A DNA stretch of 64,000 bases, taken from Actinobacteria bacterium OK074. Its GTDB lineage: Bacteria; Actinomycetota; Actinomycetes; Streptomycetales; Streptomycetaceae. Shown here one piece after another: positions 21,752 through 48,937 of this stretch. Each line of letters starts with the position of its first letter. The first letter of the stretch is position 1. The notes under the pieces were generated by a model. The model saw nothing but the letters and a program-made list of their open reading frames with translations, was not told the DNA's origin and ran no database searches. The stretch spans positions 1 through 64,000 of the forward strand of contig LJCV01000258.1 in the NCBI GenBank assembly GCA_001298575.1, read 5' to 3'. A program made the position numbers and the translations under genes.

Positions 21752-22201
21752 ATGGATCACGCGCAGGCACACAGCTGGCTCGCCACCGCCGTCGCCGAGG
21801 CCCGCACCGGCCTGGCCGAGGGCGGCATCCCCATCGGCGCCGCGCTCTACGGCCCCGACGGCACCCTCCTGGGCCGCGGCCACAACCGCCGCGTCCAGGA
21901 CGGCGACCCCTCCACGCACGCGGAGACGGCCGCGTTCCGCGATGCGGGACGGCAGCGCTCGTATCGCGGTACGACGATGGTGACGACGCTCTCGCCCTGC
22001 TGGTACTGCTCGGGGCTGGTCCGGCAGTTCGGGATCTCCCGGGTGGTGGTCGGCGAGGCGGCCACCTTCCACGGCGGGCACGACTGGCTGGCCGAGCACG
22101 GCGTGGAGATCGTGTTGCTGGACGACGCCGAGTGCGCCGCGCTGATGCGCGACTTCATCGAGAAGAATCCCGAACTCTGGAACGAGGATATTGGTGAGTG
22201 A
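21752..22201 (+). CDS. Cytosine deaminase, yeast (FCY1) type
   Basis: A 149-residue zinc hydrolase predicted to convert cytosine to uracil plus ammonia. Zinc and proton-transfer ligands are His56-Ala-Glu58 (STHAETAAF) and Cys83/Cys86 (SPCWYC). The C-terminus NPELWNEDIGE and the segment VVVGEAATFHGG...GVEIVLLDD closely mirror yeast Fcy1, which also ends in EDIGE and is of similar size; this is not the amidohydrolase-type bacterial CodA. It is divergent from PucR and overlaps the following oxygenase gene by 8 nt. An NCS1 permease for bases lies 6 kb downstream. Confidence 0.85.
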   Translation: MDHAQAHSWLATAVAEARTGLAEGGIPIGAALYGPDGTLLGRGHNRRVQDGDPSTHAETAAFRDAGRQRSYRGTTMVTTLSPCWYCSGLVRQFGISRVVVGEAATFHGGHDWLAEHGVEIVLLDDAECAALMRDFIEKNPELWNEDIGE

Positions 22202-44155: not shown

Positions 44156-46435
44156 ATGCTGCCTGCTGTCATGTGCCATGGCCCGGGACGCGAACGTCCA
44201 GGAAGCCGTGCGTTGTTGAAGGCGTCCGCCTGGGCGACCGCCGTACTGCTGAGCGCAACTCCGGTGCTGTTGCCGGGGGTTGCGACGGCGGAACCGGGGG
44301 CGGCGGCGCGGGCCGTCGTCGCTGCGGGCAAGAAACCGACGCCGTCCGGCCGGTCGTTGACACAGCTCGACGACTGGTTCGACACCCCCGTCGGCCGGAT
44401 GGCGCTCGTCGCCCGGGAGGCGAGGCGCCTGGAGAACAAGCCCCTGCGGAACATGGCCGTCGGTTTCGTGGACATCACCGGCCTGGAGGATCTGGACACC
44501 GCGGGCTACGAGATCGTGGACGTCGACGAGTTGAAGGGGTCCGACCCCGCGCTCTACCAGCAGCTCGGGCTCGCCGACCGCCCGCAGATCCAGAAGTTCG
44601 CCATCATCCGGCAGTCCAACAACGCGTCCAGCAAGGTGTCCGAGAACCACTCCGAAGTCCTCATGATCAAACGGGAGTTGCCCTACCTCGGGGTCAGGGA
44701 CTCCAACCGGGTCTTCTTCGTGGGCAGCGACCGTTCGCCCTGCAAGAGCTGCGCTCCGCAGATCCCGAAGGACGCGGACGTGGTCTACGGCGTCAAGGAC
44801 GGCAAGGGCTCGACCACGGAGCTGGAGGAACGCATCGCGGCGGCCAAGTCCGGTGTGGAGAAGGACGGGACGTTCAAGAAGGAGGTGGCGCAGGAGCGGG
44901 CGCGGATCGAGGAGCGCAAGAAAGCGGCACCGCGGCGCAAGGCGCGACTGGCCAAGCAGACACGGACGTTCTTCCAGACGGACCCCGGGACGAGCGGCAG
45001 TTGCGGCCTCGGCCTTGGTTCCCACCCCTCCGGCGTCCAGCAGGCGGCCTTCACCTCCACCTCCACCTCCCGTGCCGTACCGGCCGACTGCGGCGACAGC
45101 GACGAGTCGAAGTCCGGCACCGCGGCCGGCGTACCCCAAAGCGGCCTGGTCACAGCGCTTTCGCAGCCCGTCGCCCAAGCCCCCGGCGGCATCGACTTCT
45201 CCTCCCTCCAGCTCCGCTACCTCTCCGACCCCGGCGACGGCAGCGGACTCCAGTACTCCTTCCAGGCCCCCACCTCCACCACCGGCGGCACCGCCCCGGT
45301 GGAGGGCGTCGACGCCGCCCGGCTCACCTCGGACGCGTTCTTCGTCTGGCTCGAACTGCACCCCTCGACGTTCTGGGTGAACCTCAACCCGACCGAACCC
45401 GACCGCATCGTCGACGCCGACATGGGCCGTACCGACGTCGGCCGGATCATGCTCCAGGCGGACCTGCGGCTGAAGAAGGACGTCGGCGCGCTCATCCACC
45501 CGGACACCGCGCTCGGCAAGAAGTACTACGCCCGACTCGACGGCACCTGCTCCTCGTCACGGGTGTGGATCGTGCCCGCAGCCGCCGACGTCCGCCGCGA
45601 CGGCGACAAGCTGTACATCCTCAAGGCGCCGCTCAAGGTCAAGATGGAGTCCGAGTACCTCCAACTCCCGGCCGACCAGGAGTCGTTGGGCAGCTGCCCG
45701 AAGGAGGACGACGCCACCCGCGCGCACAACGAGGCGCTCTTCCGCAGCCTGGTCCTGCCGGAGCTGACAAAGCGGGTGAACACCGCCGCGGCCTACGCCG
45801 ACCTCCGCCGCGTCTACCTCGCCCGCGTCGCCGCCCAGTGGTACCGCGACCTCAGCCAGTCCCAACAGACCACCTACGGGGGCCTGGTCGACCAGGGGGA
45901 CATCAACTCCTGGAAGACCAGGACCACTTGGAAGCCCAAGGACACCTTCGACCGGTACGTCCGCTCGTACACGAAGGGCGACTACCACGTCACCCGCACG
46001 GTGACCAAGGGCAACTACCGCTACACGTACACCTATGTCTACGGCGGCGTCGACCTCACCTCCGTGCCGCTGCACCAGGTCTCCGACAGCTCCTTCGACA
46101 CGCACTACTCGGGCCTGTCCAAGGACGTCGACGCCTCCCTGACCCACCCCTCCGGCGGCGGCGACTCCGGCGCGCTGTGGCTCGGCTCCCCGACTCCGCT
46201 CCAGGCGGCCGGACTTGACGCACCGGACGCCGGATCCACCTCCTGGCTACGGGACGTGACGGCACCCCGCGTGCTGCTGCCGGTCCTGCTCGTCCCGCTC
46301 GCCGTCCTCCTGCTGTGGCGCCGCAGCCGCCGTCTCTCCACCGCCGGTACGGCAAGTCCCTTGCGCCGGGCGGCCGTTCAACGAGATCGACGAGATCAGC
46401 GAGATCGCCGAGTTCCACGAGGGAGGAAGCCGTGA
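44156..46435 (+). CDS. Secreted, C-terminally anchored protein with zinc-deaminase-like motif
   Basis: 759 residues. A basic N-terminus and hydrophobic core (LKASAWATAVLLSATPVLLPG) ending ATA-EPG form a signal peptide. A domain at ~115-205 carries NHSEVLM (His165, Glu167) and RSPCKSCAP (Cys196, Cys199), the HxE...PCxxC zinc pattern of the cytidine-deaminase-like superfamily, which includes many polymorphic-toxin deaminases. A long extracytoplasmic region follows, then one membrane segment (VLLPVLLVPLAVLLLW, ~706-721) and a basic tail. ATG at 44156 has AAGGAG at 9 nt. Its stop overlaps the next gene by one base. Activity and substrate are unproven; no Streptomyces homologue comes to mind. Confidence 0.68.
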   Translation: MLPAVMCHGPGRERPGSRALLKASAWATAVLLSATPVLLPGVATAEPGAAARAVVAAGKKPTPSGRSLTQLDDWFDTPVGRMALVAREARRLENKPLRNMAVGFVDITGLEDLDTAGYEIVDVDELKGSDPALYQQLGLADRPQIQKFAIIRQSNNASSKVSENHSEVLMIKRELPYLGVRDSNRVFFVGSDRSPCKSCAPQIPKDADVVYGVKDGKGSTTELEERIAAAKSGVEKDGTFKKEVAQERARIEERKKAAPRRKARLAKQTRTFFQTDPGTSGSCGLGLGSHPSGVQQAAFTSTSTSRAVPADCGDSDESKSGTAAGVPQSGLVTALSQPVAQAPGGIDFSSLQLRYLSDPGDGSGLQYSFQAPTSTTGGTAPVEGVDAARLTSDAFFVWLELHPSTFWVNLNPTEPDRIVDADMGRTDVGRIMLQADLRLKKDVGALIHPDTALGKKYYARLDGTCSSSRVWIVPAAADVRRDGDKLYILKAPLKVKMESEYLQLPADQESLGSCPKEDDATRAHNEALFRSLVLPELTKRVNTAAAYADLRRVYLARVAAQWYRDLSQSQQTTYGGLVDQGDINSWKTRTTWKPKDTFDRYVRSYTKGDYHVTRTVTKGNYRYTYTYVYGGVDLTSVPLHQVSDSSFDTHYSGLSKDVDASLTHPSGGGDSGALWLGSPTPLQAAGLDAPDAGSTSWLRDVTAPRVLLPVLLVPLAVLLLWRRSRRLSTAGTASPLRRAAVQRDRRDQRDRRVPRGRKP

Positions 46436-46881
46436 TGTCCGACGACGAACAGAACCCTGTCCCTGTCCCCGTCCCCGCGCCCACCCTCGCCGCCGCCGAC
46501 GATCCCGAACGCCGTCCTCGCCCCTACCTCCGGCTGATGGCCGCCGTCGGGGCCGTCGGACTTGTGGCCGCCGCGGTCGCCGTCATCGTCTCCGTCTCCA
46601 CCGACCCCGTGTTCCAACTGCCGGAGAGCGTACCGACGTTGCCCAGCGTCCTCCCGACCGGCACCACCCTGCCCAGCATCCCCGACATCCCGGTCCTGCC
46701 CAGCGATCTGCCGACCGACTACACGACCAACCTCCCCACCTCCATCCCCACCGAGGACTTCCCGACCTCCCTGCCGAGCAACCTCCTGCCCGGCTACGAC
46801 CTCCCCAGCTACGACCTCCCCAGCGACCTCCCGACGGACCTGCCGTCCCTGTCGCTTCCCCAGGCCGGAGGCGGCCAGTGA
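46435..46881 (+). CDS. Small membrane protein with Pro/Thr/Ser/Leu-rich ectodomain
   Basis: 148 residues: a Pro/Val-rich cytoplasmic start, one membrane segment (LMAAVGAVGLVAAAVAVIVSV), and an outer ~85 residues of repeated short LP(S/T) units such as LPTDLPSLSLP and NLPTSIPTEDFP. The ectodomain is probably extended or cell-wall spanning. ATG overlaps the previous stop (TGATG) and has GGGAGG upstream; its stop overlaps the PrsW start. No family recognised. Confidence 0.68.
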   Translation: MSDDEQNPVPVPVPAPTLAAADDPERRPRPYLRLMAAVGAVGLVAAAVAVIVSVSTDPVFQLPESVPTLPSVLPTGTTLPSIPDIPVLPSDLPTDYTTNLPTSIPTEDFPTSLPSNLLPGYDLPSYDLPSDLPTDLPSLSLPQAGGGQ

Positions 46882-48458
46882 CCCCCACCCCCGAAGCGAT
46901 TCCCCCGACTTCTCTGGTGCCGTCGATGCCCACACGCCCACCGGGCGCCCCGAGTTCGGGCCCGAGCCCGAGCCCACGCGTCCCGCGGCACGGCATCGCG
47001 AGCGCGATTGCCGTCGCCGGTGTGCTGTCCGTGGCGTACGCGATCGGCCAGATCCTGTACTGGGCCGCGCCCGACATCGTCTCGCCGTCCCCGTGGGTGA
47101 AGGTCTGGCTGCTGCCGGAGCCGACGCCGTTCCGGGTGACCCGGTACCTGCTCGTCGCGGGCTGGTGCGTCGCCGCCGCGCTCGCCCTCGTCCTGCTGCT
47201 CACCCGCCGCCACGCCACCACGGCCGACGCCGACGCGGTACGCTCCGAACTCCCCTTCCTCCTCCAACTCGCCACCCGTACCTGCCAGTTCGGCATCCTC
47301 GGCGCGCTCCTGCTGCCCTTCGCCGCGATGCCACTCGCCGCTCTCGGCAGCAACTTCCCCCAACTCCTGCTCTGCCTGCCCACCACCGCGGCGGCCCTGT
47401 TCCTCGTCCACCGGGCGCAGTTGTACCGCCGGATGCCCGGCTGGCTGCTGCTGTCCGGCTTCGGCTGGGGCGTGCTGATCGGCGGCGGCTTCGGGCTCGT
47501 CATGATCACCTGGTTCCAGCGGTACGGCGCCGGGTACTTCCTCGACTTCAGGCGCCCGCGCGGCAGTATCCGCGAGATCTACACGCTGTTCTGCCTCAAC
47601 GGCGCCGTCGTCACGGAGTTGGGCAAGGCCGCCGGGGTCGCCGTCCTCTTCCTGCTCTTCCGGCGGCACATCGACGGCGTGGTCTCCGGGGTGGTGCTCG
47701 GCGCGGCCGTCGGGCTCGGGTTCAACCTCACCGAAACCGTCCACTACTTGGGGTTCATTCAGTCCGCGCACCACCCCGCGCAGTTCTGGGACCGCCAGGT
47801 GGTCGGGCTGTTCGCGGCGCACGTGGCGTTCACCGCGCTCGTCGGGGCCGGGTTCGGCGCGGCCCGCTGGCTGCCGGAGCGGCGGGACCGGTGGGTGGCC
47901 GTCGGCGGCGGACTGCTCGCCGCGGTGGGCGGGCACTTCGAGACGGACGTGGTGCTGATGCGGCTCGACCAGCACCGGGGCGAGTGGTTCGGCCACCACG
48001 AGACCCTGAGCCTGCTCCTGGGGATCCCCCTGATGACCCTCATCACCTCGGGCGTCTTCGTCGTGCTGTACGTGCTGATCCTGCGGCGGGGGCTGCGCGC
48101 CCAGGCGGCGGGGCTGGCCCGTGCCCTGCACGCGGAGTCGGGGCTGTCCGGTGGGCCCGCCCGCGCGGCCGTCACCGCCCCCGAGATTCCCCTACTGCTC
48201 TCCCCGCGCCGCCGCCTGCTCCTGGAACTGCGGGTCTGGCGCCGCGACGGCACCGCCGGGCTACGGCACCTCGTCCGCTTCCAACAGGCCCAGCTCGACC
48301 TCGCCACCCAACACTGGCACCGGGAACGCGACGGCGCCGACATCTTCGTACCCGACGATCATCAACTCCGCGCGAGGGTGCTGGAGTTGAAGGGGCTGGG
48401 GACCGCCGCGGCGACCCCGTCCGGGCAGGCCCCGCCGGCACAGGAGGCACTCTCGTGA
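46878..48458 (+). CDS. PrsW-family intramembrane metalloprotease
   Basis: 526 residues with about nine membrane segments. Motifs of the CPBP/PrsW glutamic protease superfamily are present: TELGK (Glu247, Lys250) for the EExxK motif with only one Glu, GFNLTETVHY (FxxxE, Glu286), and FAAHVAF (His315). PrsW-type proteases cut membrane-anchored anti-sigma factors or other membrane proteins. The C-terminal ~120 residues are cytoplasmic and charged. The GTG overlaps the previous stop. Context suggests the neighbouring anchored proteins as possible substrates. Confidence 0.78.
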   Translation: MTPTPEAIPPTSLVPSMPTRPPGAPSSGPSPSPRVPRHGIASAIAVAGVLSVAYAIGQILYWAAPDIVSPSPWVKVWLLPEPTPFRVTRYLLVAGWCVAAALALVLLLTRRHATTADADAVRSELPFLLQLATRTCQFGILGALLLPFAAMPLAALGSNFPQLLLCLPTTAAALFLVHRAQLYRRMPGWLLLSGFGWGVLIGGGFGLVMITWFQRYGAGYFLDFRRPRGSIREIYTLFCLNGAVVTELGKAAGVAVLFLLFRRHIDGVVSGVVLGAAVGLGFNLTETVHYLGFIQSAHHPAQFWDRQVVGLFAAHVAFTALVGAGFGAARWLPERRDRWVAVGGGLLAAVGGHFETDVVLMRLDQHRGEWFGHHETLSLLLGIPLMTLITSGVFVVLYVLILRRGLRAQAAGLARALHAESGLSGGPARAAVTAPEIPLLLSPRRRLLLELRVWRRDGTAGLRHLVRFQQAQLDLATQHWHRERDGADIFVPDDHQLRARVLELKGLGTAAATPSGQAPPAQEALS

Positions 48459-48937
48459 CGACCAGTATGCGTCCCGCCCTCGTCGGACGGCTGGCCGCGC
48501 TCGCCGCCGCCACCGTGCTGCTCGTCCTCGGTACGTCCGCGCCCGCGTCCGCGCAGTGCGCGGCCCCTACGTATCACGGGGGTCTGCCCGTACGGGTCGG
48601 GGCCTGCCCGGAGGGGGTCGCCGGGGGCGCGTCGGGCGGGGTGTGGGCGGTCGTCGTCCTCGCGGTGGGGCTGTGGATCGCGTACGCCCGGTCCCGCTCG
48701 GGGGCCACGACGGAGGCGGATCTGGGCGTGATCGATGCGGTGTTCGGCGCGGCGGCGGAGGCGACCGCGGCGGAGGCGACCGCTGCGGAGGCAGCCGCTG
48801 ATGAGGCCGAGGAGGGCACTCCGTACGAGCACCCCCCTCACCCGGGAGCCACGGAACCCGAGCCCACGGAACCCGGGCCCACCGCACCGGGTCCCCCGGA
48901 GTCCGGGCCGCAGGGAACCCCTCCGGGAACCCCTTAG
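48455..48937 (+). CDS. Small secreted/anchored protein, Pro/Glu-rich C-terminus
   Basis: 160 residues. A signal peptide (LAALAAATVLLVLGTSAPASA) is followed by a short Cys-containing segment (QCAAPTYHGGLPVRVGACPEG, two Cys), a membrane segment (GVWAVVVLAVGLWIAYA), an Ala/Glu-rich region with AEATA repeats, and a Pro/Glu/Thr tail. GTG at 48455 overlaps the PrsW stop and has AGGAGG eight nt upstream. It ends the four-gene operon. Function unknown. Confidence 0.65.
   Translation: MTTSMRPALVGRLAALAAATVLLVLGTSAPASAQCAAPTYHGGLPVRVGACPEGVAGGASGGVWAVVVLAVGLWIAYARSRSGATTEADLGVIDAVFGAAAEATAAEATAAEAAADEAEEGTPYEHPPHPGATEPEPTEPGPTAPGPPESGPQGTPPGTP

Follow-up and report, generated by a model that had tools for sequence, protein, structure and literature searches.

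A putative surface-tethered deaminase toxin encoded beside a P2-PrsW-P4 module in Actinobacteria bacterium OK074 belongs to a modular toxin family

A four-gene operon was analyzed at positions 44156 to 48937 of a 64,000-nucleotide stretch of DNA (the window; positions 1 to 64,000 of contig LJCV01000258.1, assembly GCA_001298575.1) from Actinobacteria bacterium OK074, a member of the Streptomycetaceae. The best explanation for this operon, to which we assign as a whole a probability of about 0.7, is that its first product (P1) is a surface-tethered polymorphic toxin with an N-terminal nucleic-acid deaminase domain, and that the three genes that follow form a toxin-trafficking module (P2-PrsW-P4) that is separate from the conserved core of P1 and was recruited beside the toxin. 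As judged from the sequences compared, P1 is a member of a modular family in which this core joins different N-terminal toxin-like domains to a C-terminal sortase or membrane anchor, the reverse of the polarity of classical polymorphic toxins. The features of the operon are as follows.

44156 to 46435, plus strand: P1, 759 amino acids (aa) from an ATG start; predicted secreted, membrane-anchored protein with deaminase domain and core.
44156 to 44290, plus strand: Sec-type signal peptide of P1, aa 1-45 (...GVATA/EP), predicted by eye from the sequence.
44444 to 44845, plus strand: N-terminal deaminase domain of P1, about aa 97-230, from alignment A5 and hhalign to relatives positive for XOO_2897-deam.
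44648 to 44656, plus strand: HSE motif (H165-S166-E167), zinc ligand and catalytic Glu by family rule.
44738 to 44752, plus strand: PCKSC motif (P195-C196-K-S-C199), zinc ligands C196 and C199 by the same pattern.
44993 to 45175, plus strand: P1 linker with invariant C283 and C312 and a GLxxAL-like motif, found in deaminase-type members and some members with other N-domains.
45176 to 46225, plus strand: P1 core, aa 341-690 (GGIDFS...WVNLNP...YADLRRVY; alignment A1).
46256 to 46312, plus strand: C-terminal transmembrane (TM) anchor of P1, aa 701-719, followed by a basic tail, by hydropathy.
46435 to 46881, plus strand: P2, 148 aa from ATG (149 aa if GTG 46432 is used); N-terminal TM segment and a long P/T/L-rich repeat tail (DLPTDLPS or PTDLP type).
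46878 to 48458, plus strand: P3, 526 aa, PrsW-family membrane protein.
48455 to 48937, plus strand: P4, 160 aa; signal peptide, Cys...Tyr...Cys, TM segment and tail.

The open reading frames (ORFs) of P1 to P4 overlap by 1 nt (ATG) or 4 nt (GTG) for P1/P2 and by 4 nt each for P2/P3 and P3/P4, confirming the four overlapping genes reported by a first-pass annotation of this DNA. By hydropathy analysis, P1 and P2 have one TM segment each, P3 has eight hydrophobic segments, and P4 has two, the first of which is its own signal peptide. The single TM segment of P1, together with the Sec signal predicted by eye, agrees with the signal peptide and C-terminal membrane anchor that had been proposed for this protein. 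Likewise, the assignment of the third product to the PrsW type was upheld by a score well above the Pfam cut-off (PF13367, 81.8 vs 23.5 bits, E 6e-23). Genes for P1 to P4 were found together at seven further loci in seven genomes; therefore, the arrangement is not a chance neighborhood, and the proposed link of a toxin with a PrsW gene holds for eight core loci in two gene orders. In the source assembly (10.7 Mb, 318 contigs), P1 is single copy and two PrsW-family genes are present, one in the window and one on contig C103.

The deaminase assignment had been based on a HxE...PCxxC pattern, and loss of its zinc ligands in orthologs had been named as the finding that would overturn it. H165, E167, C196 and C199 were located as described, and the His, Ser, Glu and both Cys residues were found to be invariant in all 17 aligned deaminase-type N-termini (window included), the other 16 of which are 20-38% identical to that of the window; the spacing between the Cys pair of the zinc site differs in some members. 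Pfam family PF14440 (XOO_2897-deam) was matched by 8 of the 17 at E<=0.1 (best 6e-19), with L133 and L135 observed above its cut-off (loci, genomes and contigs are denoted by L, G and C plus a number). A match to this family was obtained for relatives but not for the window itself. By profile-profile comparison with hhalign, the window group (window, L127, L128 and L136) aligned to the L133/L135 group at 97.4% (E 1.3e-11), whereas the nuclease group and the L139/L142 group each reached 0.2%; for two further groups with the motif, the value was only 16% (L149) or 35% (L148/L146). The deaminase profile had six weak matches among Protein Data Bank (PDB) sequences (E 0.26-2.5), led by a dCMP deaminase (E 0.26) and including two APOBEC-3F proteins, one nucleoside deaminase and two unrelated proteins. 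A loose HxE...CxxC pattern was matched by only 1 of 789 other called genes (from the window and the loci at that stage), and this gene, at 21752-22201 of the window, presumably encodes an ordinary cytoplasmic nucleoside/tRNA deaminase. Taken together, these comparisons support homology of the P1 N-terminal domain to deaminases.

The most widely conserved stretch of P1 is the core of about 350 aa, which was missing from the first-pass annotation. P1 was found in 14 of 100 related genomes searched (its own genome included), and the core was defined from 12 relatives with long matches (L017-L028) and from loci of Streptomyces morookaense (L030), Micromonospora sp. MP36 (L031) and Actinoplanes cyaneus (L032). 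The stretch common to all of these relatives corresponds to aa ~341-690 of P1; L025 ends partway through it, and the similarity of L030 to the window begins upstream, at aa 96. When a 13-row profile (A1) was used, the core was detected in 82 of 392 same-genus genomes (four as fragments only), in 8 of 394 genomes of a class-wide sample (7 of these from the same genus) and in 1 of 121 genomes of the family of G252. No Pfam match over the cut-off was detected for the core region in the full-length members scanned, nor was a match found for the core profile against PDB sequences or in phage records; a poor AlphaFold2 core model (four sequences, predicted local distance difference test (pLDDT) 45) gave no Foldseek match at E<=0.001. 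Relatives were also detected on plasmids, where four of six are annotated as 'hypothetical protein', one record is unannotated and one has no listed gene at the site.

Two further observations were made on core genes. Genome G646 carries two nuclease-type copies of equal score on opposite strands, at C1:52468-53505 (L082) and 11487329-11488366, one close to each end of an 11.5-Mb contig, an arrangement resembling terminal inverted repeats. At the Micromonosporaceae loci, a small hydrophobic and probably multi-TM protein (L031:11161-11607 and L032:11302-11754) overlaps the core gene by 4 nt, a membrane partner unlike the PrsW module.

What precedes the core varies. A tree of 95 cores included 70 rows with a restriction endonuclease (REase)-like N-domain (NUC), 19 deaminase-type rows and 6 others (L031, L032, L074, L139, L142 and L147), with classes assigned by BLAST linkage and inspection, such that the deaminase-type label rests partly on the motif itself; the BLAST clusters of 13 and 5 also included L139 and L142, in which the motif is absent and the domain is another one. 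Genes were called with our own GC-frame script; the N-termini of L132, L146, L074 and the window, whose called starts lay too far downstream, were read from an extended frame, and the ends of L025 and L131 leave the usual frame. Not included in the tree were L114 (identical to L030 in contig and protein), plasmid loci L151-L153, the second of the two end copies in G646, L150 (deaminase-type by motif, with a core of nearly full length) and short or broken fragments in G015, G571, G587, G756, G693, G536, G026 and G591. In the NUC domain, R200, D203, E214 and K216 (L020 numbering) were invariant in 21 of 21 aligned sequences and form a D...ExK pattern. Weak Pfam matches of these sequences were to Tox-REase-9 (2/21, best E 0.0015) and Tox-REase-7 (2/21, best E 0.033), and the NUC profile had one odd match in the PDB (4m7o, E 2e-5).

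Exchange of these domains is most apparent in closely related pairs. The cores of L146 and L147 are 86% identical, and the former carries a HTE...CGKC pattern, the latter D...KEVK; outside the core, clear similarity of the two is limited to a linker of ~54 aa (BLAST E 9e-8). The N-domain of L147 looks REase-like by eye, with no Pfam match over the cut-off. L139 and L142, which carry the other domain, are placed among deaminase-type rows of the core tree, and the core of L139 shares 71-73% identity with those of L135 and L131. Their N-domain, of unrecognized family, sits on the same linker and core and is probably another toxin fold. The argument for exchange rests on these named pairs because the five N-domain changes counted on the core tree are the least that six labels allow, and this count was set aside as evidence. 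As in polymorphic toxins, a variable toxin-like domain is thus carried on a constant region; the toxin-like domain lies at the N-terminus, not the C-terminus, and the anchor is C-terminal.

An LAxTG-like sorting signal was detected in 67 of the 70 NUC rows (in one as MADTG) and in none of the 25 others, most of which end in a hydrophobic helix and basic residues (L131 continues further); the 'TM' label of the tree denotes merely that no LAxTG-like signal is present. The NUC member L020 scored 28.6 for strep_LAETG (cut-off 30) and 16.1 for LPXTG_anchor (cut-off 15.9). With most NUC rows of sortase type and most other rows with TM-like tails, the N-terminal position of the toxin-like domain fits a protein tethered by its C-terminus.

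Candidate immunity genes were found beside relatives of P1. One or two genes upstream of the core gene, 69 of the 70 NUC rows carry a member of C0 or C1, two gene families defined by single-linkage clustering, and one C1 member is a DUF6333 protein (E 9e-78), a family for which no paper was found in the literature searched. Genes of this C1 (DUF6333) type, for example L024:9694-10416, precede 28 nuclease-type core genes by one or two genes. When mapped onto the trees, the C0/C1 label switches 10 times for the core and 6 times for the N-domain, which would agree with a gene that moves together with the toxin domain. Directly upstream of the deaminase-type L135 is a SUKH-4 immunity gene (E 2e-18), and SUKH immunity is listed for XOO2897 deaminases in the accessible part of PMC3482391. 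The presence of different domains on one core, together with these candidate immunity genes in relatives, supports a polymorphic-toxin nature of the P1 family, in line with the toxin idea of the first-pass annotation.

The P2-PrsW-P4 module appears to be a unit of its own. PrsW adjoins the core gene in 8 of the 95 rows (window, L017, L124, L140, L146, L147, L148 and L149), that is, in 7 of 19 deaminase-type rows plus L147; with only these 7, PrsW was rejected as a marker of all deaminase members. The distribution (8/25 non-NUC vs 0/70 NUC rows) gave a Fisher value of 9e-6, in which independence is overstated as the rows are related. The order is core-P2-PrsW-P4 in the window and L017 and P2-PrsW-P4-core in the other six, and the full module is beside the core toxin at all 8 loci. 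P2-like ORFs were detected at the seven loci other than the window as well as at L160 and L170, and P4-like ORFs are present also in L146, L147, L148 and L149; in P4-like proteins the signal peptide, C35, Y40, C51 and the hydrophobic stretch that follows were found in 8 of 8 aligned (A10).

At L160 and L170, the module stands without the core and P4 is fused to a nuclease or an Rhs toxin. L160 (6199-9456) encodes a P2-like protein, PrsW and P4 fused to Endonuclea_NS_2 (E 2.6e-14), followed by a gene weakly similar to SUKH (E 0.0013, below cut-off). L170 (4601-10598) encodes a P2-like protein, PrsW and a 1321-aa Rhs protein that starts with a P4-like segment and ends in Tox-HNH-EHHH (E 7e-7). 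A PQQ-repeat protein, a possible regulator, directly precedes P2 in both (L170:1775-4597 and L160:4437-6341), with a full kinase domain in L170 and a trace of one, below cut-off, in L160. A four-row PrsW profile (A8) matched 6 of 199 genus genomes, 5 of them beside the core, with four of the six being the rows of the profile itself. A nine-row profile (A9) matched 9 of 382 genus genomes, 7 beside the core and 2 beside a P4-toxin fusion; as A9 was built from 8 of its 9 matched loci, L170 is the independent find. In all nine genomes a toxin or core-toxin gene adjoins the module, and at all ten module loci PrsW and the toxin are separate genes. P2 and P4 look like delivery parts, since both are found with PrsW next to toxins of unrelated kinds and two genomes encode P4-toxin fusions. 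The suggestion that the small proteins provide immunity is unlikely on the same grounds, and this role was set aside for both.

Based on these findings, we propose that P1 would be exported by Sec and tethered to the producing cell by its C-terminal TM helix. The core may serve as a stalk, or as a receptor or translocation part that binds or spans toward a neighbor, and the deaminase, at the outward N-terminal tip, would be passed into an adjacent cell, probably that of a relative, and edit its DNA or RNA. Nucleic acids are the targets of deaminase toxins of this clade, and immunity is provided by SUKH and similar genes. P2-PrsW-P4 may assist display, release or passage of the toxin, with PrsW acting by cleavage, as a conduit or as a non-catalytic scaffold.

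How PrsW would act was judged from its catalytic residues, which, in the accessible part of PMC4602095, are an EExxK motif, a His in transmembrane helix 5 and HxxxD. The window protein has TELGK in place of EExxK, with E247 and K250 kept, and retains His315 and H353xxxD357. The same first motif (TE[LC]GK) was found in L124 and L140 and SEVGK in L017, such that the first Glu is Thr or Ser in all four, and these three also keep the His and HxxxD. In L146-L149 the Lys of the first motif and both His sites are lost, and its Glu is kept only in L147. L160 and L170 have EELGK, the His and HFAND or HFSNN, and the second PrsW of the genome (contig C103) has EESAK. The Glu of another PrsW motif (window E286) is kept in all compared, and the C-terminal part is conserved across nine sequences. 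The first-pass annotation had favored regulated release, in which PrsW, with P2 and P4 as partners, cuts the P1 anchor and sheds the deaminase. The coupling of the genes in an operon, the retained residues of the window protein and the restriction of PrsW to rows without an LAxTG-like signal are consistent with this reading. Release is weakened, however, by the altered first motif, by the losses in L146-L149 and by the 12 of 19 deaminase-type loci at which no PrsW was seen. Thus, PrsW-catalyzed release is not supported in the form proposed; at the window cleavage may occur, although the case for it is weakened, and in L146-L149 it is unlikely; as a general account of the operon we consider release somewhat doubtful. 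We are similarly reserved about a largely non-catalytic PrsW, which would act as a scaffold, chaperone or membrane-side immunity protein and whose catalysis would have decayed once the toxin had its own signal peptide. In agreement with this idea, the motifs are most complete (EELGK, His and HxxxD/N) at the two loci with a P4-toxin fusion and at best of the TELGK type at those whose toxin is secreted as a protein of its own, while the C-terminal part of PrsW is still conserved. On the other hand, the window type keeps most motif residues, which would be odd for a dead enzyme, and the comparison covers only ten module sequences.

Other explanations place the operon outside of toxin delivery. 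The module might be a regulated-proteolysis signaling unit that controls toxin expression, as the prototype PrsW cuts an anti-sigma factor (accessible part of PMC4602095); with P4 physically fused to toxins in L160 and L170 and, by eye, no sigma or anti-sigma gene directly beside PrsW among the loci listed, we regard this as quite improbable. P1 could instead be an enzyme of the cell surface whose role is the editing or salvage of nucleic acids or nucleosides outside the cell, or one that targets phage or plasmid DNA as it comes in. Free DNA could be a substrate of surface nucleases and deaminases, and no immunity family was found beside the window copy; by contrast, the variety of catalytic domains on a single core and the candidate immunity genes of relatives speak for a weapon, and PADLOC defense models gave no match, making this alternative unlikely. 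A toxin with a recruited module is itself opposed by several findings. The window deaminase domain matched no Pfam deaminase model (at E<=1 and again at E<=0.1), and AlphaFold2 models of this domain (two sequences, pLDDT 42) were poor, as were those of the core. No known immunity family was found among the seven window neighbor proteins scanned (a radical-SAM enzyme, GNAT, DUF4229, TetR, a sulfotransferase, DUF6716 and one without a match), and this core has no known route of delivery into target cells. The PrsW active site is incomplete in the window and mostly lost in four of the eight operon-linked PrsW proteins, the 12 deaminase-type loci show no PrsW within 3.3-4.9 kb on each side (flanks were cut short upstream of L030 and downstream of L134), and L125 is without P2-PrsW-P4 although its core is 86% identical to that of the module-bearing L124. 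At these last two loci, the module is upstream in L124 only and the genes of the other side are shared, pointing to a recent gain or loss.

If P1 is a surface-tethered toxin, a broader idea can be put forward tentatively, with the odds somewhat against it: these may be a new class of 'inside-out' polymorphic toxins of filamentous actinomycetes, with the toxin at the outward N-terminal tip, two interchangeable tethers (a sortase LAxTG signal with a cytosolic immunity partner, or a TM anchor optionally served by the PrsW module), a module that moves between toxin classes, and a PrsW that becomes a pseudoenzyme when uncoupled from the toxin chain.

The coupling of PrsW to toxins has a precedent. 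In the PrsW-dependent polymorphic toxin pathway, PrsW is fused N-terminally to C-terminal toxins, also via RHS repeats (Zhang et al. 2012, accessible part of PMC3482391). The present systems are similar in that a PrsW-family protein is coupled to nuclease or deaminase toxins (in all nine genomes with this PrsW subfamily, eight of whose loci were used to build the profile), and a role in processing and extrusion was proposed for that pathway. They differ in that PrsW is not an N-terminal fusion but a separate gene in P2-PrsW-P4 and that P1 carries its toxin domain at the N-terminus of a tethered core protein; the accessible part of that paper mentions neither P2 and P4 nor the core. Compared to the XOO_2897 deaminase toxins (PF14440), the family shares HxE...CxxC, profile-profile homology and, at L135, a neighboring SUKH gene, but the window is missed by the Pfam model and the domain is N-terminal here. 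The LAxTG signals of 67 of 70 NUC rows, with L020 near the cut-off, resemble those of Streptomyces sortase-anchored proteins (NCBIfam strep_LAETG), unlike the window and other deaminase-type rows, which are without a sorting signal. The umbrella toxins of Streptomyces are polymorphic toxins that form secreted protein complexes (accessible part of PMC11062931). P1 and its relatives would likewise be polymorphic toxins of this genus. To our knowledge, the core, P2 and P4 are no part of umbrella toxins. No description of the core, P2, P4 or N-terminal toxin domains on C-terminally tethered proteins was found in the literature searched, which was other than subscription papers and preprints. Thus, PrsW-toxin coupling is already known as fusions, whereas the separate-gene module and the N-terminal toxin on a tethered core are undescribed in that literature.

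Scattered genes, present in about a fifth of the Streptomyces-type genomes sampled, are hereby joined into one modular toxin family. It comprises a core that can be tested, families proposed to confer immunity, DUF6333 among them, and a defined PrsW module of three genes. Base editing is one use to which such nucleic-acid deaminases can be put. The older proposal of a PrsW-dependent toxin route becomes directly testable, with intact, altered and apparently dead PrsW proteins available as a natural series. If P1 is indeed a surface-tethered toxin with a recruited module, the family would represent an undescribed bacterial way to display and swap toxins.

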